A stretch of DNA of 34,949 nt from a virus. The notes below the pieces were generated by a model. The model made no database searches, had not been told where the DNA came from, and worked only from the letters and a program-made list of their open reading frames with translations. Every line of letters begins with the position of its first letter. Within the stretch, counting starts at the first letter, position 1. Location: IMG/VR virus record IMGVR_UViG_3300044985_000073, positions 1 to 34,949 of that record; one strand, written 5' to 3'. This document shows, piece after piece, positions 2,135-34,424 of the stretch. Made by a program: the position numbers and the translations under genes.

Positions 2135-2860
2135 ATGACAGAGATTTGGAAAGGTATACAAGAGGTTGATGGACGATATCAAGTATCTAATCTTGGTAAG
2201 GTTAGGAATACGAACACAGGTAGGGTCTTAAAGCCTAAGTCAGATAAAGACGGTTATCATGAGTACTGCTTAAGGAAAGATAAGAAGAACCTACATAGAA
2301 GAGGGCATAGGCTAGTTTTGCAAGCGTTCACACCTACCACAGATAGTGAGTTAGTTGTGAATCATAAAAACAATATCAAGTACGACAATAATATATTAAA
2401 TTTAGAATGGGTTACAGTGCAAGGTAATACCCAACACTACTACGGAGGCTACCACAAAGAGGGTAGAGGGTTGTCTACCTTAAGCAAGTTAGAGTGGAGC
2501 TACGTACTATACTTACACAGAGCAGGCATCAGCTACCCAGCTATAAAAGCTAATATAGGCCTCAATATAAGTAGAGCAGACTCTATAGGAACAGTGCTTA
2601 GCGGGGAGAGACTTAGTGCTTTTACTGGATTCACTACAGATCAAAGAATAACGGATCGTATAGTAGGCAAGATAAGTAAAGAGCAAGTTAAGAGTATATT
2701 GACAGACTATTACGACAAAGGGGTCACCAACGGACAACTAGCTTTGAAATATAGTATATCTATAGCACAAGTACATAGAATCTGTAACGGAACTAGACAC
2801 AAAGAGGTGTACGAAGATTTTGTAACGAGTAGAGGTTCTGATGCCAAGAAAAAACAGTAA
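2135..2860 (+). CDS. Free-standing NUMOD4-HNH homing endonuclease
   Basis: A 241-aa DNA endonuclease. The N-terminus (about 3-28, EIWKGIQEVDGRYQVSNLG) is a NUMOD4 motif, and residues about 62-95 form an HNH_3 nuclease with VNHKNNIKYDNN and NLEWVT. The C-terminal half shows two helix-turn-helix-like units (about 117-165 and 180-225), probably for target recognition. The start is an ATG after GAGGGG. Its 3' end overlaps the terL start by 20 nt, leaving terL intact. Such genes spread by cutting a related phage lacking them. Because the adjacent terL intron has no ORF, this enzyme is the obvious candidate to mobilise it, but its target is unknown. Confidence 0.88.
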   Translation: MTEIWKGIQEVDGRYQVSNLGKVRNTNTGRVLKPKSDKDGYHEYCLRKDKKNLHRRGHRLVLQAFTPTTDSELVVNHKNNIKYDNNILNLEWVTVQGNTQHYYGGYHKEGRGLSTLSKLEWSYVLYLHRAGISYPAIKANIGLNISRADSIGTVLSGERLSAFTGFTTDQRITDRIVGKISKEQVKSILTDYYDKGVTNGQLALKYSISIAQVHRICNGTRHKEVYEDFVTSRGSDAKKKQ

Positions 2861-5716
2861 AAGAAAGAGTAAGTTTGCAGAAACTAAACCCCAAGAAGGC
2901 AAGCAAACTCTAGCTTTCACGACAAAGGTAGATTTTATGATCTACGGAGGTAAACTTGTGCCTCCCCTTCCACAGTAATGTGATTGCCAAAAACCTATCT
3001 AATCGGGGAAACCTAAACAGTTAATGCTGTAGGCAATCCTGAGCGAAGTCCACTGTTAGTGGATGTGCCAAGAGACTAAAGGTGATGAGTGTAGCCTTGT
3101 AAGACTGTAAGCGATAGACAGTTTGAAACGGTAGGCATCCTGAGAAAGGATGAAGATATAGTCCGACACCATAAGAAATTATGGGAGGTGTAGCGACCTC
3201 ATAACGCCAAGGCAAGGGGCGCTGGTAAAGCAGTGCCTGTAAACCAAGCAATACCAACAGAAGGTGGTTTTGTTAATTTAATTGATATCTCTGAAGGAGA
3301 TTACGTCCTAGGTTCAGACGGAAAACCTAACAAAGTAGTGAAGTTACACCCTATAGAGTCACAAGACACTTATAAGCTGTCCTTCTCAGATGGGACAGTA
3401 CAAGAGTGTTCTGGAAACCACCTATGGAACGCTTGGAGAGCGAATCAAGCTGTGACTATAAATGGTAAAAGAGTCTCAGGAGTAGCCTCACAAAAGACTG
3501 TAGACACCCTAAAGCTACTAGAGTGGGTCAGTAAAGCAAAGATTGCATCAGGAACTAAAAGATACCCATTACTACCTCTATCAGGTGAAGTAACATTCAA
3601 CAAGAAAGAGTTACAGATAGACCCATACACTCTAGGATTGTTGCTAGGAGATGGGTGCATCACAGAGAAAGCCAACACAACTATAACTACAATTGACAGT
3701 AGTATTCGAGAGTACCTACAAGGTAAATTCCCAGCAGGAGTATCTGTAGATAGTAAGATAGGTACAGAGGCAGTAGCAGTACGTTTCAAAGGCAGTACAC
3801 TAGTAGCCCTAAAACAGAAACTAGAAACCCTAGACTTGTACGGAAGAGATAGCAAGACTAAGTTCGTACCTAAAAACTACCTACAATCGTCTATCGAAGA
3901 TAGGTATGAGATATTGCAAGGACTGTTAGATACAGATGGTACTGTAGATAAAAGGGGGCAGGTGTACTTTTATAGCTGCTCTAAAGAGTTAGCAGTAGGT
4001 GTAAGGTCTTTAGTGGAGTCGTTAGGTGGTGTTTGTACTATGACATCTAAGCTAGGTAAGTATAAAGATAAAGAAGGCAATACTGTATCTTGCTCTGAGT
4101 ACTTCACTGTAAGAATAAAACACAGAGAACCTCACAAACTCTTCAAACTACATAGAAAATTAGAAAGGGTGAAAGTATGTCAAGGTTTTTACAGAAAACT
4201 GATTGACATTGAAGTTTTACCTGCACAAGATATGCGGTGTATTACTGTTGAGAGAGAAGATGGATTATTCCTTACTGGAGATAGGTTTCTAGTAACCCAC
4301 AATTCGGAGTTACTAGCTATGCGCCCACTAGAGTACGTCAACGACCCTAATTTTTCAGGGGTATTCTTTCGTAGGCAGTATGCAGAATTAACAGGGGCAG
4401 GAGGTTTGTGGGATAAGTCTAAGAAGATGTACCCAGAGTTTAAAGCTAAACCTAATATATCCAACTTGAGGTGGGATTTCCCTACGGGCGCACAAGTCAG
4501 GATGTCCCATATGCACACAGAAGATAGTAAGGAGTCTCACAGGGGACTGCAATACTCTTTTATAGGTTTCGATGAAATAGATCAGTTCTCAAAAGATCAA
4601 GTACAATTTCTCCTAACATGTTTACGTTCAGAAGCAGATATGGATTCCTTCTGCATAGGTACATGTAACCCTAACCCCGATAGTTGGGTTCTAGAGTTAG
4701 TGAAGTGGTATTTGGATGAAGAGGGTACTCCAAGAGAGGATAGGTGTGGGACTATAAGATACTACATAGTATTAGATGGAGATTTTGTTTTTGGTGAATC
4801 TGAGGAGTATTTCAAAGAGAACTATCCAGATGCAGTATTTGTACACAACCCGACTACTAAAGAAGACATCTACATACCCCCTAAAACTTTCACATATATA
4901 CCGGGAAATATTTTTGATAACCCAGCACTAATAGAAGCTAACCCTAGATATTTATCAGAATTACAAAATTTACCTGACCACGAAAGGGCAAGACAATTAT
5001 GGGGGAATTGGTATGCAAGGCCAAGCGGAAGTTCCAGTTGGGAGAGGTCTTGGCTAGTAGGTGCAGACCGAGTACCCGCTAATAGTCGAGGAGTTAGAGC
5101 ATACGACCTAGCAGCCAAAGAACCTTCAGAAGTCTATCGTCACCCAGATGCGACAGTCTCGGTACAAATGTGGAAATGCCCTCAAGGGTACTACTACTTA
5201 ACAGGAAACTACCACCCTAAGTTCATAGATAACGTAGACAATAAAGAAGTGTACGGTAGGGTCAGAAAGCGTATCGGTGACAGAAACAACGTCATGTTTG
5301 ACCAGTGTGAACTGGACGGGATAGACATCCCAGTAGTACTACCTCAAGATGTAGGTGCAGCAGGAATACAGGCGTTAGAGGATTTACAGAAACAATTCGC
5401 AAGTAGGGGCTACAGGACTATGAAAGACCCCATGCCTACTACAAGAGGTAAGCTTCTTAGGTTCCTACCCTTTGCAGATGCCTCACAAAATGGACTAGTG
5501 CGTATTGTACTAGAAACTTTCCCTAATCAAGACACACTAAATTACATATTCAAAGAGTTAGAGGCTTTTGATGGAGAGAGAAGTACGGCACATAGGAAAG
5601 ATGATTTCCCTGATGCAATAGCCACTGCCTACAATGCTTTAAACAAACAGGCAGTACATACCCCAGCTATATTCTCTGCCATCAACTCCCCAACACTAAT
5701 ATCCAATCTGCGCTAG
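2841..5716 (+). CDS. terL: Terminase large subunit, interrupted by a group I intron and an intein
   Basis: The DNA-packaging motor ATPase/nuclease. Exons are 2841-2951 (37 aa) and 3212-5716. The second contains six terminase residues (3212-3229), the intein (3230-4303) and the C-extein (4304-5716, 470 aa). The mature protein would be about 513 aa, normal for TerL. Splicing both elements out rebuilds a P-loop, YGGARGAGKS. Downstream are a Walker B-like FIGFDEID, a TCNPNPDSW coupling-like motif, and nuclease-domain features RAYDLAAKEP and DDFPDAIATAYN. The ATG at 2841 follows AGAGG at 5 nt and overlaps the HNH gene by 20 nt. An unspliced transcript would stop at TAA 2976-2978 inside the intron, so both splicing steps are needed for packaging. 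Splice boundaries are inferred from sequence. Confidence 0.93.
2952..3211 (+). mobile_element. Group I intron in terL, ORF-less
   Basis: A 260-nt intron. P1: exon GGAGGT (2946-2951) pairs with guide GCCTCC (2960-2965), leaving the expected U-G pair at the 5' splice site. Core elements: P-like AATCGGGGAAACC (2999-3012), Q-like AATCCTGAGC (3035-3044), R with GACTA (3074-3078) and S AAGATATAGTCC (3153-3164), giving P7 GACTA/TAGTC. P8 is CATCC/GGATG. The intron ends in G (3211), as group I introns do, and joins GGT to GCA in frame. It resembles the IA group of phage T4-like introns. It has no endonuclease gene of its own. Confidence 0.9.
3230..4303 (+). mobile_element. Class 3-type intein with LAGLIDADG endonuclease in TerL
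   Basis: A 358-aa protein-splicing element in frame within TerL, between P-loop Lys and Ser. It starts with Ala1, not Cys or Ser, and ends THN with Ser at +1. Splicing block B reads SGNHLW (His64, Trp66), block F has RCITVE with Cys337, and Thr356 precedes the terminal His-Asn. This Trp-Cys-Thr set is the signature of class 3 inteins, which do not need an N-terminal nucleophile. The homing endonuclease has two LAGLIDADG motifs, LGLLLGDGC (135-143) and LQGLLDTDG (229-237), and looks intact. A GTG-started frame at 3233 is not a real gene start. Confidence 0.92.
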
Positions 5717-15433: not shown

Positions 15434-17156
15434 ATGGCTTACCAAGAGCTTGCACAGGTTAACATTAGCCTTGCAACAGCAACAACAGAGAGAGTGGGGT
15501 TTGGCGTACCACTCTTTGTGTCAGCACACAGGTTCTTTCCTGAGCGTGTGAGAGTATACAGCTCAATAACTTCTGTAGCAGAAGACTTTGATACAAACAG
15601 CTTAGCATACGCAGCAGCGCTATCTGCATTCAGCCAGTCTAATGGCTTGTCATCACTGATGATTGGTCGTAGAGAAGCGGATATGTTACTATACCCCACT
15701 GTTGTCCCAGTACAGAATGATGTATATGAGTTAACTATTGAAGTTAATGATGGCGATAAAAGTACATTCGTGTATACAGAGACAGCCGTAACCCCTGATG
15801 AGGAAGATGTAGTCACTGGTATTAAGGCATTAATAGATGCGGATTTAGATATTTCAGGTCACATCACAACTACTATCGAAGGAACAGGTGCAACTGCCAA
15901 GTTAAAAATAGTAGCAACACTATCTACAGATTTCTTTGTTGTAACCGACATTGATGATTTAAGCTATACTTTCGAATCTACAGAAACGGCAGAGGAAACT
16001 ATCTCAGCTATTGACGTAGAGAATAGTGGATACTACACCATCTCAGCTGATGATAAAACTCCAGCTTATATCTTAGCAATGAGTATATCAGGTAATGCAC
16101 GTACTAAGCAATACTGGGTATCTACTTATGAACAAGATTCATTAGCAGCACTACCAGAGCCAGCTACAGATACACTAGGTTTACTGGCAGCTTCTAACGC
16201 AGAACGTACTGTTGGTATCCATCATCAAGGGGCAGCAACCACTTTCCCTGAAATGGCTATTTTAGCTTACAACCTACCATTTGACTCAGGTTCTATTGTG
16301 TGGGGTAACGATGTAGTTTCAGGAGTAGCAGCTTCTACAGACCCTGCCACTGGTGAGAACTTATCAGAGACCCAGAAGACTAACTTACTTACACGTAAGA
16401 GTGCTTTCTTTGATAAGCAAGGTGGAGCTATCTTCTTCAACTCTGATGTTAAAACCATGAGCGGTGAGCGCCCTGAGAATGTGCGTGGTAGAGATAACAT
16501 GGAAGCGGATATGACATCTGACTTACGTGACTTACTACTACAACAAGTAGGTACAAAAATTCCGTTAACATTAGCGGCTTAGTCTGGTAACAGATTTAGC
16601 AAACCTTGTGAACTGCTGGAAAGCCCTTAGAGCTTAACTAACTACAACGTAACTTGAAAAGGTAAGCGTGAATGTTTAAAAATAGTTAAGATTGGGTAAT
16701 CAGCATCCAAGCTCCTTTAAAATGGAGAAGGTTCAACGACTATCGAAACCACACCGCAAGGTGGAAGGGAGTAGAGTAGAGAGGAAGTCCTCTCGAAGTG
16801 CAAGGCATCCTAAATAAGGATGAAGATATAGTCTGGTCTTTGGTGAAAATCAAAGCTGCTTATATAAATAAACCTAACAAAGCAGAGTAAGAGTAACGAC
16901 CTTACTTAACATAAACGACAATAATCGAGGCATTGCTCAGATTAAATCTCCTATCGAGTCTGTACTTAATAAGTATAACTTACGTGGATTTATTGAAGCA
17001 GGCTATAAAATTACTGTACCTGATGCTAACACAATTAGTGCGGGGGATAAAGCTACTCAAATCTTTGATGAACTAACTTTCGTAGCTCAACTATCTGGAG
17101 CTATTACTATGGTAGAAATTACAGGTACACTACAACTTAACGAGGTACTTGCATAA
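15434..17156 (+). CDS. Tail sheath protein, DUF3383 type, split by a group I intron
   Basis: The contractile sheath subunit. Exons 15434-16565 and 16918-17156 join to 456 aa across a Tyr codon, giving KIPYNNRGIAQIKSPIES. The unspliced frame ends at 16582. DUF3383-type features: an N-terminal NISLATATTERVGFGVPLF, the middle TKQYWVSTYEQDS, EMAILAYNLPFDSGSIVWGN, RKSAFFDKQGGAIFFN, and the C-terminal NKYNLRGFIEAGYKI and TMVEITGTLQLNEV. ATG 15434 follows CGAGGAG. The stop codon overlaps the tube start (TAATG). The joined end lies in the conserved C-terminal domain needed for sheath assembly, so splicing is required for function. Confidence 0.92.
16566..16917 (+). mobile_element. Group I intron in the sheath gene, ORF-less
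   Basis: A 352-nt intron. P1: CCGT (16562-16565) pairs with GCGG (16574-16577), with the U-G pair at the splice site. P element AACTGCTGGAAAGC (16611-16624), Q AATCAGCATCCAAGC (16698-16712), R with GACTA (16738-16742) and S AAGATATAGTCT (16823-16834) form the catalytic core; P7 is GACTA/TAGTC. It ends in G (16917). The core matches the T4 td-like IA2 type. Segment 16803-16833 is 28/31 identical to 3133-3163 in the terL intron. There is no endonuclease gene inside. Confidence 0.93.
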
Positions 17157-32733: not shown

Positions 32734-32828
32734 TGTTCACAGCTAAAGACTTACAACAAGTAATAGATGAGAGTGAAGCAGGTTTAGTAAAGTTTTTAGG
32801 GGAGAATAAGAATGATAACAGTATTTAG
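32733..32828 (+). CDS. Very small ORF before the PRPP synthetase-like gene
   Basis: A 31-aa frame, MFTAKDLQQVIDESEAGLVK onwards. The ATG has a strong AGGAGAG site and overlaps the previous stop (TAATG); it overlaps the next start by 17 nt. It may be a real small protein or a leader that couples translation of the enzyme. No homology recognised. Confidence 0.45.
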   Translation: MFTAKDLQQVIDESEAGLVKFLGENKNDNSI

Positions 32829-33672
32829 TGATAATAACGAGGTTCCAGTAAACAAAGTAGAATTCAGTGATGGGGCTATCACTTTCAAATTAGAGGGGTT
32901 GAAACCAGATGCAAAGTACATATCTATTAATGTAGACCCCGCCACACCAGTTAATTTGGTTAGGGAAGAGTTACTACTGATTGCGGATTGCCTAACTTCT
33001 CTGGCTATTTTTGAGTACTTTGATAGTAGTTTAAAAGTAATCCTCAATCTACCTTACCTACCATACGGGAGGTGTGATAGAGTATTTGAAACAGGGAACC
33101 CTAACGGACTACTAAGCTTCTTGTATACACTATCTGAACTCACAATATTTGATGAAATGCATGTATGTGATATACACAACAAGAGTGCTGTAGAACAAGC
33201 TGCTTGCTTACGTCACTTGCCTGTAGTAGAGAAAGACCAACTACAGTGTTTCAAGGAGAGCTTGCCCTATGATTTCAACACAGACTATGATTATATTATA
33301 GCCCCTGACAAGGGAGCTGTAGAGAAGGCTAAGACTATTGCAGCTCATCTTGAAGTAGGTATTGAATTTGCTAATAAGGTTCGTGACGTTTCCACAGGGA
33401 AGCTCACAGAGATGAATATCCCTGACTGTGACTTCACTGGTAAAAAGGTTCTTATTCCAGATGATATTGCAGATAATAGTGGTACTCATGTTTGGTTAGC
33501 AGAGTTACTGAAAAAAGCTGGTGCTTCTCAAGTTGACCTTTATATAACACATGCAATATTTCCAAAAGGTATGAAACACTTGACAGGTATAATTGATAAT
33601 GTATACTGCTATCAAACTGTTGCAGGACATATCAATAAACAAACAGTTTTAGATTTTAATTTAGGTAAATAG
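32812..33672 (+). CDS. prs: Ribose-phosphate pyrophosphokinase family enzyme (PRPP or ADPR-PP synthetase)
   Basis: A 286-aa enzyme of the PRPP synthetase family, transferring pyrophosphate from ATP to the 1-position of a ribose phosphate. Motifs: LPYLPYGRCDR (80-90, usual YxPYxRQDR), DIHN (120-123), APDKGA (164-169), catalytic-loop KVRD (189-192) and PRPP-type loop DDIADNSGT (217-225, usually DDxxDTGGT). It is somewhat shorter than bacterial Prs (about 315). The adjacent Nampt-family gene indicates NAD+ metabolism: the product could be PRPP for NMN synthesis, or ADPR-pyrophosphate as in NARP1 (Adps). ATG follows GGGGAG. Confidence 0.88.
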   Translation: MITVFSDNNEVPVNKVEFSDGAITFKLEGLKPDAKYISINVDPATPVNLVREELLLIADCLTSLAIFEYFDSSLKVILNLPYLPYGRCDRVFETGNPNGLLSFLYTLSELTIFDEMHVCDIHNKSAVEQAACLRHLPVVEKDQLQCFKESLPYDFNTDYDYIIAPDKGAVEKAKTIAAHLEVGIEFANKVRDVSTGKLTEMNIPDCDFTGKKVLIPDDIADNSGTHVWLAELLKKAGASQVDLYITHAIFPKGMKHLTGIIDNVYCYQTVAGHINKQTVLDFNLGK

Positions 33673-33674
33673 AT

Positions 33675-34424
33675 ATGGATAGTGTTCTTGAAAAACAGTT
33701 GAAAAGTAGTAACGCTATAGTGTTGGAAAAATTAAGTAATACCCGATCAAAAATAAAGTTTATGGATACAGGGTATATAGCAGATTTTTATAATGTAAAT
33801 ATAGAGAGGGGTGAGTTTAAAGATCGGCTAAGACCTAGTTTATGTGGAGTAGGTTACGGGGTTATGAGAGGGGACTCTATTAGTCCTTTCCATAAGACAT
33901 GGCAAAATATGATAAATAGGTGCCACAACCCAACATACAATGATAAATACAAGTCATACTCTGATTGCTCTGTGATAGAAGGTTGGTACGATTTTCGTAA
34001 TTTCCGTGAGTGGTGCGAACATACCCACCCTTATAACACAGAAGTGAAGTTTGAATTGGATAAAGATATGAGGTTACAAGGTAATAGAGTGTACTCACCT
34101 GAAACCTGCATGTGGATACCAAAGAAACTCAACCAGTACATAAACGAGGTCAAGGGTGCATCTTCTGTTACAGGAGTTAAGGGAGTGTCCCCCGCTATGA
34201 GGTCTGGGGAAGGAGTGACAGATGGGGTGTACGAAGTACGTTGCGCTGATGGAAAAGGTGGGAGAGTCTTCTTAGGGCATGTTAACTCCATAGAAGAAGG
34301 TTCTCTAATATACAAAAATTATAAAGAGGGTAGACTGAAGTTTCTGGCAGAAGAATACTTAGTGAGTGGGGTTATACCAAAAGCCACTTACGAAATTATA
34401 GTTAAATATAAGATAGGAGAATAA
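33675..34424 (+). CDS. HNH/AP2-like free-standing homing endonuclease
   Basis: A 249-aa protein. The N-terminus (LEKLSNTRSKIKFMDTGYIA) and the core HKTWQNMINRCHNPTYNDKY, WYDFRNFREWCEH, ELDKDMRLQGNRVYSPETCM match the phage HNH-type endonuclease family (W.NM..RC...Y..Y, LD.D...GN..YSPE.C.W). The last 95 residues (SVTGVKGVSPAMRSGEG, then GRVFLGHVNSIEEGS) look like an AP2-type DNA-binding domain. It is inserted between the prs and nadV-like genes, 2 nt after the former and 2 nt before the latter, so it has not disrupted either. Probably a selfish mobile gene. Confidence 0.82.
   Translation: MDSVLEKQLKSSNAIVLEKLSNTRSKIKFMDTGYIADFYNVNIERGEFKDRLRPSLCGVGYGVMRGDSISPFHKTWQNMINRCHNPTYNDKYKSYSDCSVIEGWYDFRNFREWCEHTHPYNTEVKFELDKDMRLQGNRVYSPETCMWIPKKLNQYINEVKGASSVTGVKGVSPAMRSGEGVTDGVYEVRCADGKGGRVFLGHVNSIEEGSLIYKNYKEGRLKFLAEEYLVSGVIPKATYEIIVKYKIGE

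Follow-up and report, generated by a model that had tools for sequence, protein, structure and literature searches.

How can a phage make its packaging motor when the ATP-binding loop of the large terminase subunit is split at the RNA level and, only 18 nt further, at the protein level, and does this proximity reflect cooperation between two elements or a hotspot that was hit twice? The question is raised by terL of an uncultured phage, represented by the IMG/VR virus record IMGVR_UViG_3300044985_000073, of which positions 1-34,949 (34,949 nt, the whole stretch analysed) are referred to here as the window. In this gene, the Walker A motif is interrupted twice, by a group I intron at YGG/ARGAGK and by an intein at GK/S (slashes mark insertion sites; Table 1). 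The account that we favor, with a probability of roughly 0.87, is that two selfish splicing elements were independently acquired in the Walker A motif of terL, are kept there and spread by homing. Structure, boundaries, empty sites and recurrence form the sequence-based part of this account; splicing in the window phage, homing activity and the role of the HNH protein are the parts that we infer.

Table 1. Features of the terL region of the window.
Feature	Position	Strand	Basis
Free-standing HNH homing-endonuclease gene (NUMOD4 and HNH_3), 20-nt overlap with the terL start	2135-2860	+	Pfam, phrog_59
terL exon 1 (N-extein, residues 1-37, ...VDFMIYGG)	2841-2951	+	In-frame homology to uninterrupted TerLs across the junction
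P1 exon strand GGAGGU (Gly-Gly codons), U2951 at the 5' splice site	2946-2951	+	6 bp with 2960-2965, including U.G
ORF-less group I intron, 260 nt, last base G3211	2952-3211	+	Rfam RF00028, fold, J2-1 sister
Internal guide, CUUGU (P10 with 3212-3216) then GCCUCC (P1)	2955-2965	+	P1/P10 pairing
terL exon 2, 18 nt, ARGAGK, between intron and intein	3212-3229	+	
Class 3 intein, 358 aa, with LAGLIDADG endonuclease, A1...THN/S	3230-4303	+	LAGLIDADG_3, Hom_end, WCT triplet
Trp66 of the WCT triplet	3425-3427	+	Invariant
Cys337 of the WCT triplet (branch nucleophile)	4238-4240	+	Invariant
Thr356 of the WCT triplet	4295-4297	+	Invariant
terL exon 3 (C-extein from the +1 Ser; remaining ATPase and nuclease domain)	4304-5716	+	Terminase_6N, Terminase_6C

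The terL gene starts at ATG 2841, and unspliced read-through of exon 1 yields YGGKLVPPLPQ followed by a stop after eight intron codons. Removal of both elements gives a 513-aa Terminase_6 TerL, which matches Terminase_6N (PF03237, 1e-20) and Terminase_6C (PF17289, 1e-7), the ATPase and the RNase H-like nuclease, is 48% identical, over 98% of its length, to the TerL protein of Pseudoalteromonas phage H101 and aligns with uninterrupted relatives without gaps at both junctions. Because of the stop in the intron and the split between the Walker A lysine and serine, TerL production is predicted to need RNA splicing and then protein splicing. The original prediction, which placed an intron and an intein 18 nt apart in the P-loop with six terminase residues (ARGAGK) between them, is confirmed by the covariance model, the P1 and P10 pairings, the WCT triplet and relatives with empty sites. 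It also held that YGGARGAGKS is restored in frame, which agrees with the junction alignments and with contig L184, where the identical peptide is unbroken; the empty sites that it proposed to look for in related phages were found in L184, in H101, which is likewise unbroken, and in the allele pair L274/L276 described below. Since the window comes from an uncultured virus, its contig could in principle be a misassembly of unrelated fragments; however, frame and homology are continuous over all junctions and the same stacking is present in other contigs, including the separate records L274 and L275, and such an artefact can be practically dismissed.

The intron matches RF00028 at 2942-3185 with 82.4 bits (E 1e-19; gathering threshold 50 bits) over the complete model (1-253). 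In P1, GGAGGU ending at 2951 forms 6 bp with GCCUCC (2960-2965), with a U.G pair at the splice site; P1 thus uses exon bases of the motif start, the Gly-Gly codons, as had been proposed. P10 is formed by GCAAG of the 3' exon (3212-3216) and CUUGU (2955-2959), 5 bp, and is as good at only two of 90 alternative positions ending in G. Together with the terminal G, these two pairings define where the intron begins and ends. The fold of the intron RNA beats 200 of 200 shuffles (z -4.5), and the element combines a covariance core, the U.G in P1, a terminal G, P10 and an intronless homologous site, as expected for a group I intron whose RNA splicing can be predicted. Its sister is the P-loop intron of Pseudoalteromonas phage J2-1 (100/100 support). 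The two introns lie at different P-loop codons, both directly after GGAGGU, and therefore the intron appears to follow a nucleotide target, of which Gly-rich P-loops offer several. Another group I intron of the window, at 16556-16855 and scoring 94.9 bits, splits the tail sheath gene (phrog_205) into an N-terminal part at 15434-16565 and a C-terminal part from about 16900 in a different frame.

Automatic gene calling would place the terL start at GTG 3233, within the intein. With AAGGGG about 13 nt before it, this codon could serve as the start of an N-terminally truncated TerL in a phage whose intron had lost the ability to splice. However, this product would begin within the intein and lack the Walker A sequence YGGARGAGK; P1, P10 and the core are intact, P1 and P10 hold across independent introns, and the homologous intron of the Vibrio phage ICP1 splices (PMC10448857). 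A truncated TerL is thus very improbable.

The intein matches LAGLIDADG_3 (2e-10) and Hom_end (2e-6) in Pfam. Class 3 inteins are defined by the WCT triplet, and their internal cysteine forms the first branched thioester (PMC7891396); W66, C337 and T356 match this triplet and are unchanged across 12 relatives. Residue 1 is alanine, and relatives at the same K/S or K/T site start with V, L, A or Q; this variability fits a non-catalytic role of residue 1, as expected for class 3. The C-terminus is HN357-358, with the downstream junction THN/SELL. The AlphaFold model (pLDDT 88) has its best PDB match in PI-SceI and also matches the class 3 DnaB intein 6bs8. On the basis of the triplet and the non-nucleophilic first residue the intein is of class 3, in line with the Hint fold and the terminal HN followed by Ser, and protein splicing is predicted to proceed via Cys337. 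While the stack itself was described correctly in the original prediction, the intein class, the tail sheath intron and the HNH gene that overlaps the start of terL had been missed. A second intein site of the P-loop, YGGxAG/SGKS, is occupied by Cys1 inteins in L014 (Vibrio phage PWH3a-P1), L028 and L007, which are short in L014 and L028, and L195 carries an intein elsewhere in TerL, near residue 400 of the window TerL.

A single-sequence TerL scan of viral contigs gave no relative, and alignment queries were required. The intein is present without the intron at the window site in Pseudoalteromonas phage HM1, in contigs L023 and L043 and in others. The reverse state, an intron without an intein at the exact window site, is found in the Rheinheimera Barba phages (VIGG/AAGSGK), where the insertion is common to 112 records of at least 99% identity. 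Introns without an intein are located one codon further (YGGA/AGSGK) in Shewanella phage 1/40, L026 and L220, and at yet other P-loop codons in Barba19A and J2-1; a literature search on terL introns of Shewanella phages gave no papers. ICP1 carries a group I intron between ORF129 and ORF128, with a P1 of 8 bp and a P10 of 5 bp, which Rfam scores at 42.1 bits (below the gathering score; E 4e-9); in our reading of the ICP1 sequence it is placed in the P-loop, at FYGGA/AGGGKS, and no intein is present. Splicing of ICP1 terL has been verified by RNA-seq, RT-PCR and Sanger sequencing, and a T5orf172 homing-endonuclease gene (HEG) lies beside exon 1 (PMC10448857). P1 and P10 are preserved across these P-loop introns despite differing exon sequences, although the Barba introns have a shorter P10 and the L123 P1 contains a mismatch.

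Other parts of these terL genes are interrupted as well. The Walker B region (GF/DE) contains further introns or split genes in L003, L004, L005, L123 (intron at 4698-4930, 99.7 bits) and J2-1, and in L043, which also has the P-loop intein, an HNH-containing insertion at about 2540-3500 splits TerL between GTL and NPNPDSW. Exon 1 of L023 and L123 (about 3160 in L123) shares an in-frame TGA, VIQPQ-stop-Q[KR]GSQELAF, after a good ribosome-binding site. Reading TGA as tryptophan (code 4) did not generally improve the open frames, nor did the surroundings yield a suppressor tRNA.

The stack of the window is not a unique oddity. In L123 (IMGVR_UViG_3300038701_000531), VIYGGA is followed by an intron (3236-3458), AGSGK (15 nt), a class 3 intein and S; this intron is not listed by Rfam and is recognized by its exact insertion relative to L023, by P1 and P10 and by its similarity to P-loop introns. 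In L274 and L275 (IMGVR_UViG_3300037337_000032 and 3300037345_000056, separate records, 98.6% identical), the order is TFYGG, an intron (2756-2982, Rfam 64.3 bits), AAGSGK (18 nt), a class 3 intein and S. The three stacks contain different intron lineages, and their inteins are only about 34-41% identical to one another. Since two unrelated phages have the same stacking, the P-loop is a place where parasitic splicing elements insert repeatedly. The arrangement had been called unusual, which holds in that it is rare and no published case was found in the literature searched, but not in the sense of a single occurrence, as two further independent stacks exist.

Allele pairs show how the elements vary between close relatives. 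L276 is the empty-intron allele of L274, with flanks that are 93% and 96% identical across some 6.7 kb, and at the terL P-loop site the two differ by the intron. In the 21 coding bases around this site there are three changes, all silent, two of which are relevant to the ribozyme: A to T at -1, needed for the U.G pair, and T to A at +3, which adds a P10 pair. These changes may reflect short-tract co-conversion or later adaptation. L023 lacks both the HEG and the intron of L123, and the intein is common to both; between J2-1 and HM1, the HEG and most of terL are exchanged as a block, with flanks that are 94-98% identical. It has been proposed in the literature that splicing elements act as sensors, and, as each element interrupts the ATP-binding loop, TerL could not function before both had been spliced out; serial RNA and protein splicing might thus form a two-step checkpoint that times the packaging ATPase, for instance in response to Mg2+, temperature or redox state. 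However, presence or absence differs between phages that are about 93-96% identical (L274/L276), many relatives are without one or both elements, and no conserved extra domain or regulatory motif was found; we consider such a checkpoint improbable.

Whether intron and intein favor each other was addressed in 32 dereplicated TerL lineages that share at least about 39% identity with the window, which were sorted by hand and form a convenience sample (L123 and L274 came in through intein searches). In the P-loop, six lineages have an intron, nine an intein at either site and two have both, compared with 1.7 expected under independence (Fisher one-sided p 0.55). Statistical cooperation is thus unsupported, and as the overlap matches independence, no cooperation need be invoked; a hotspot hit twice is the simplest account. 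It could still be argued that HNH gene, intron and intein move as one unit and reinforce each other's spread and immunity at TerL P-loops, with stacking itself under selection: at 15-18 bp, either endonuclease would co-convert both elements, each insertion would shield the target of the other, and some 20 bp of the locus would be subject to as many as two cutting specificities. The three independent stacks, with their distinct intron lineages and divergent inteins, the joint presence of HEG and intron in L123 and their joint absence from L023, and the block exchange between J2-1 and HM1 are all in keeping with such a cassette. However, the overlap is what chance predicts; L274/L276 and L123/L023 differ in the intron but share the intein, which argues against inheritance as a unit; and no long divergent conversion tract surrounds the L274 intron. 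Selected stacking therefore appears unlikely, although it is the least improbable of the alternatives.

The gene upstream of terL bears on how the intron might spread. Its product matches NUMOD4 (7e-14) and HNH_3 (7e-9) in Pfam as well as phrog_59 (4e-37), and its closest phage relative (38% identity), from Vibrio phage 184E37.1, likewise overlaps terL, which is unbroken in that phage. A Barba upstream fragment was rejected as a relative; it shows weak similarity to the window HNH (32% over 53 aa chosen by eye) and no PHROG match. Collaborative homing has been described for other systems (PMC6083498; PMC3984707), and the layout of the window, in which a free-standing HEG adjoins an ORF-less intron, resembles it and would fit such a mode of spread. 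Upstream of terL, GIY-YIG genes are found in L123 and J2-1, T5orf172 or CapR-type genes in ICP1, L026, L220 and H101, and an HNH gene in PWH3a-P1, which has an intein instead of an intron. By hand count, an HEG lies within about 1.3 kb upstream in 6/8 intron-bearing versus 5/16 intron-free lineages (one-sided p about 0.055). Presence and absence of HEG and intron agree in L123/L023 and J2-1/HM1 and disagree in 184E37.1, with an HEG and no intron, and in L274, where the intron is present and no HEG is adjacent; because of the latter two, the link between HNH gene and intron is associational and optional. In J2-1, the GIY-YIG gene spans the ends of the linear record (L022/L021), which have a short redundant stretch in common, and ends at the terL start. 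The window encodes another HNH-type endonuclease at 33675-34424 (phrog_953, 2e-44), directly after a ribose-phosphate pyrophosphokinase gene (32812-33672).

According to the account of two independent acquisitions, translation of the intron-spliced mRNA would give a precursor from which the intein excises itself, with Cys337 as the first nucleophile and Ser+1 as acceptor, thereby restoring YGGARGAGKS. Both elements would be retained because the motif is invariant and Gly-rich, and losing either of them imprecisely would be lethal there. The intein would spread via its own LAGLIDADG domain and the intron, probably, via the HNH endonuclease encoded just upstream, that is, by collaborative homing. 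The 18-nt spacing would result from both element types targeting the same short conserved motif rather than from mutual need, and at this distance homing by either endonuclease would usually co-convert both.

The elements are of known kinds; their combination is new. The closest parallel to the intron is ICP1 terL, which likewise has an ORF-less group I intron in the P-loop, a P1 on the Gly-Gly(-Ala) codons, a P10 of 5 bp and a free-standing HEG directly upstream of exon 1 (PMC10448857); in contrast to the window, the ICP1 intron lies one codon further (YGGA/AGGGKS), the HEG is of the T5orf172 rather than the HNH type, there is no intein and splicing has been verified. The intein resembles the MP-Be DnaB-type class 3 inteins in its W/C/T positions, non-nucleophilic residue 1, LAGLIDADG domain and HN/S junction (PMC7891396), but is located in TerL, 18 nt after an intron. 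Its site, between the invariant Walker A lysine and the next Thr or Ser, is also that of the mycobacteriophage TerL1-a inteins (PMC5050341), which lie in Terminase_1 proteins with no intron reported beside them, whereas the window combines Terminase_6 with an intron. For collaborative homing, the comparison is F-CphI beside the intron-bearing psbA of cyanophage S-PM2 (PMC6083498), where cleavage at the intron site has been shown and no intein is present; in the window, such cleavage is proposed. RNA and protein splicing elements occur within the same phages in crAss-like phages (PMC7886860) and phage RNR genes (PMC3653736), and multiple introns and inteins in one gene are mentioned for phage RNR (PMC3653736). 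The literature searched, which covered few subscription papers, holds no description of an intron-intein pair in one motif or 15-18 nt apart, and a search aimed at genes with an intron and an intein at a P-loop gave no hit.

Taken together, a motif of ten residues has received intron insertions at several registers and inteins at two, sometimes both together. The finding also accounts for the mis-annotation of terL genes of this type, which callers start within the intein. If the stacked elements do form compound loci, stacking would be selected rather than accidental. The natural allele series, with neither element, the intron only, the intein only or both, can serve to test cooperation versus competition of neighboring selfish elements, and to test whether the nucleotide target or the protein motif determines where they insert.
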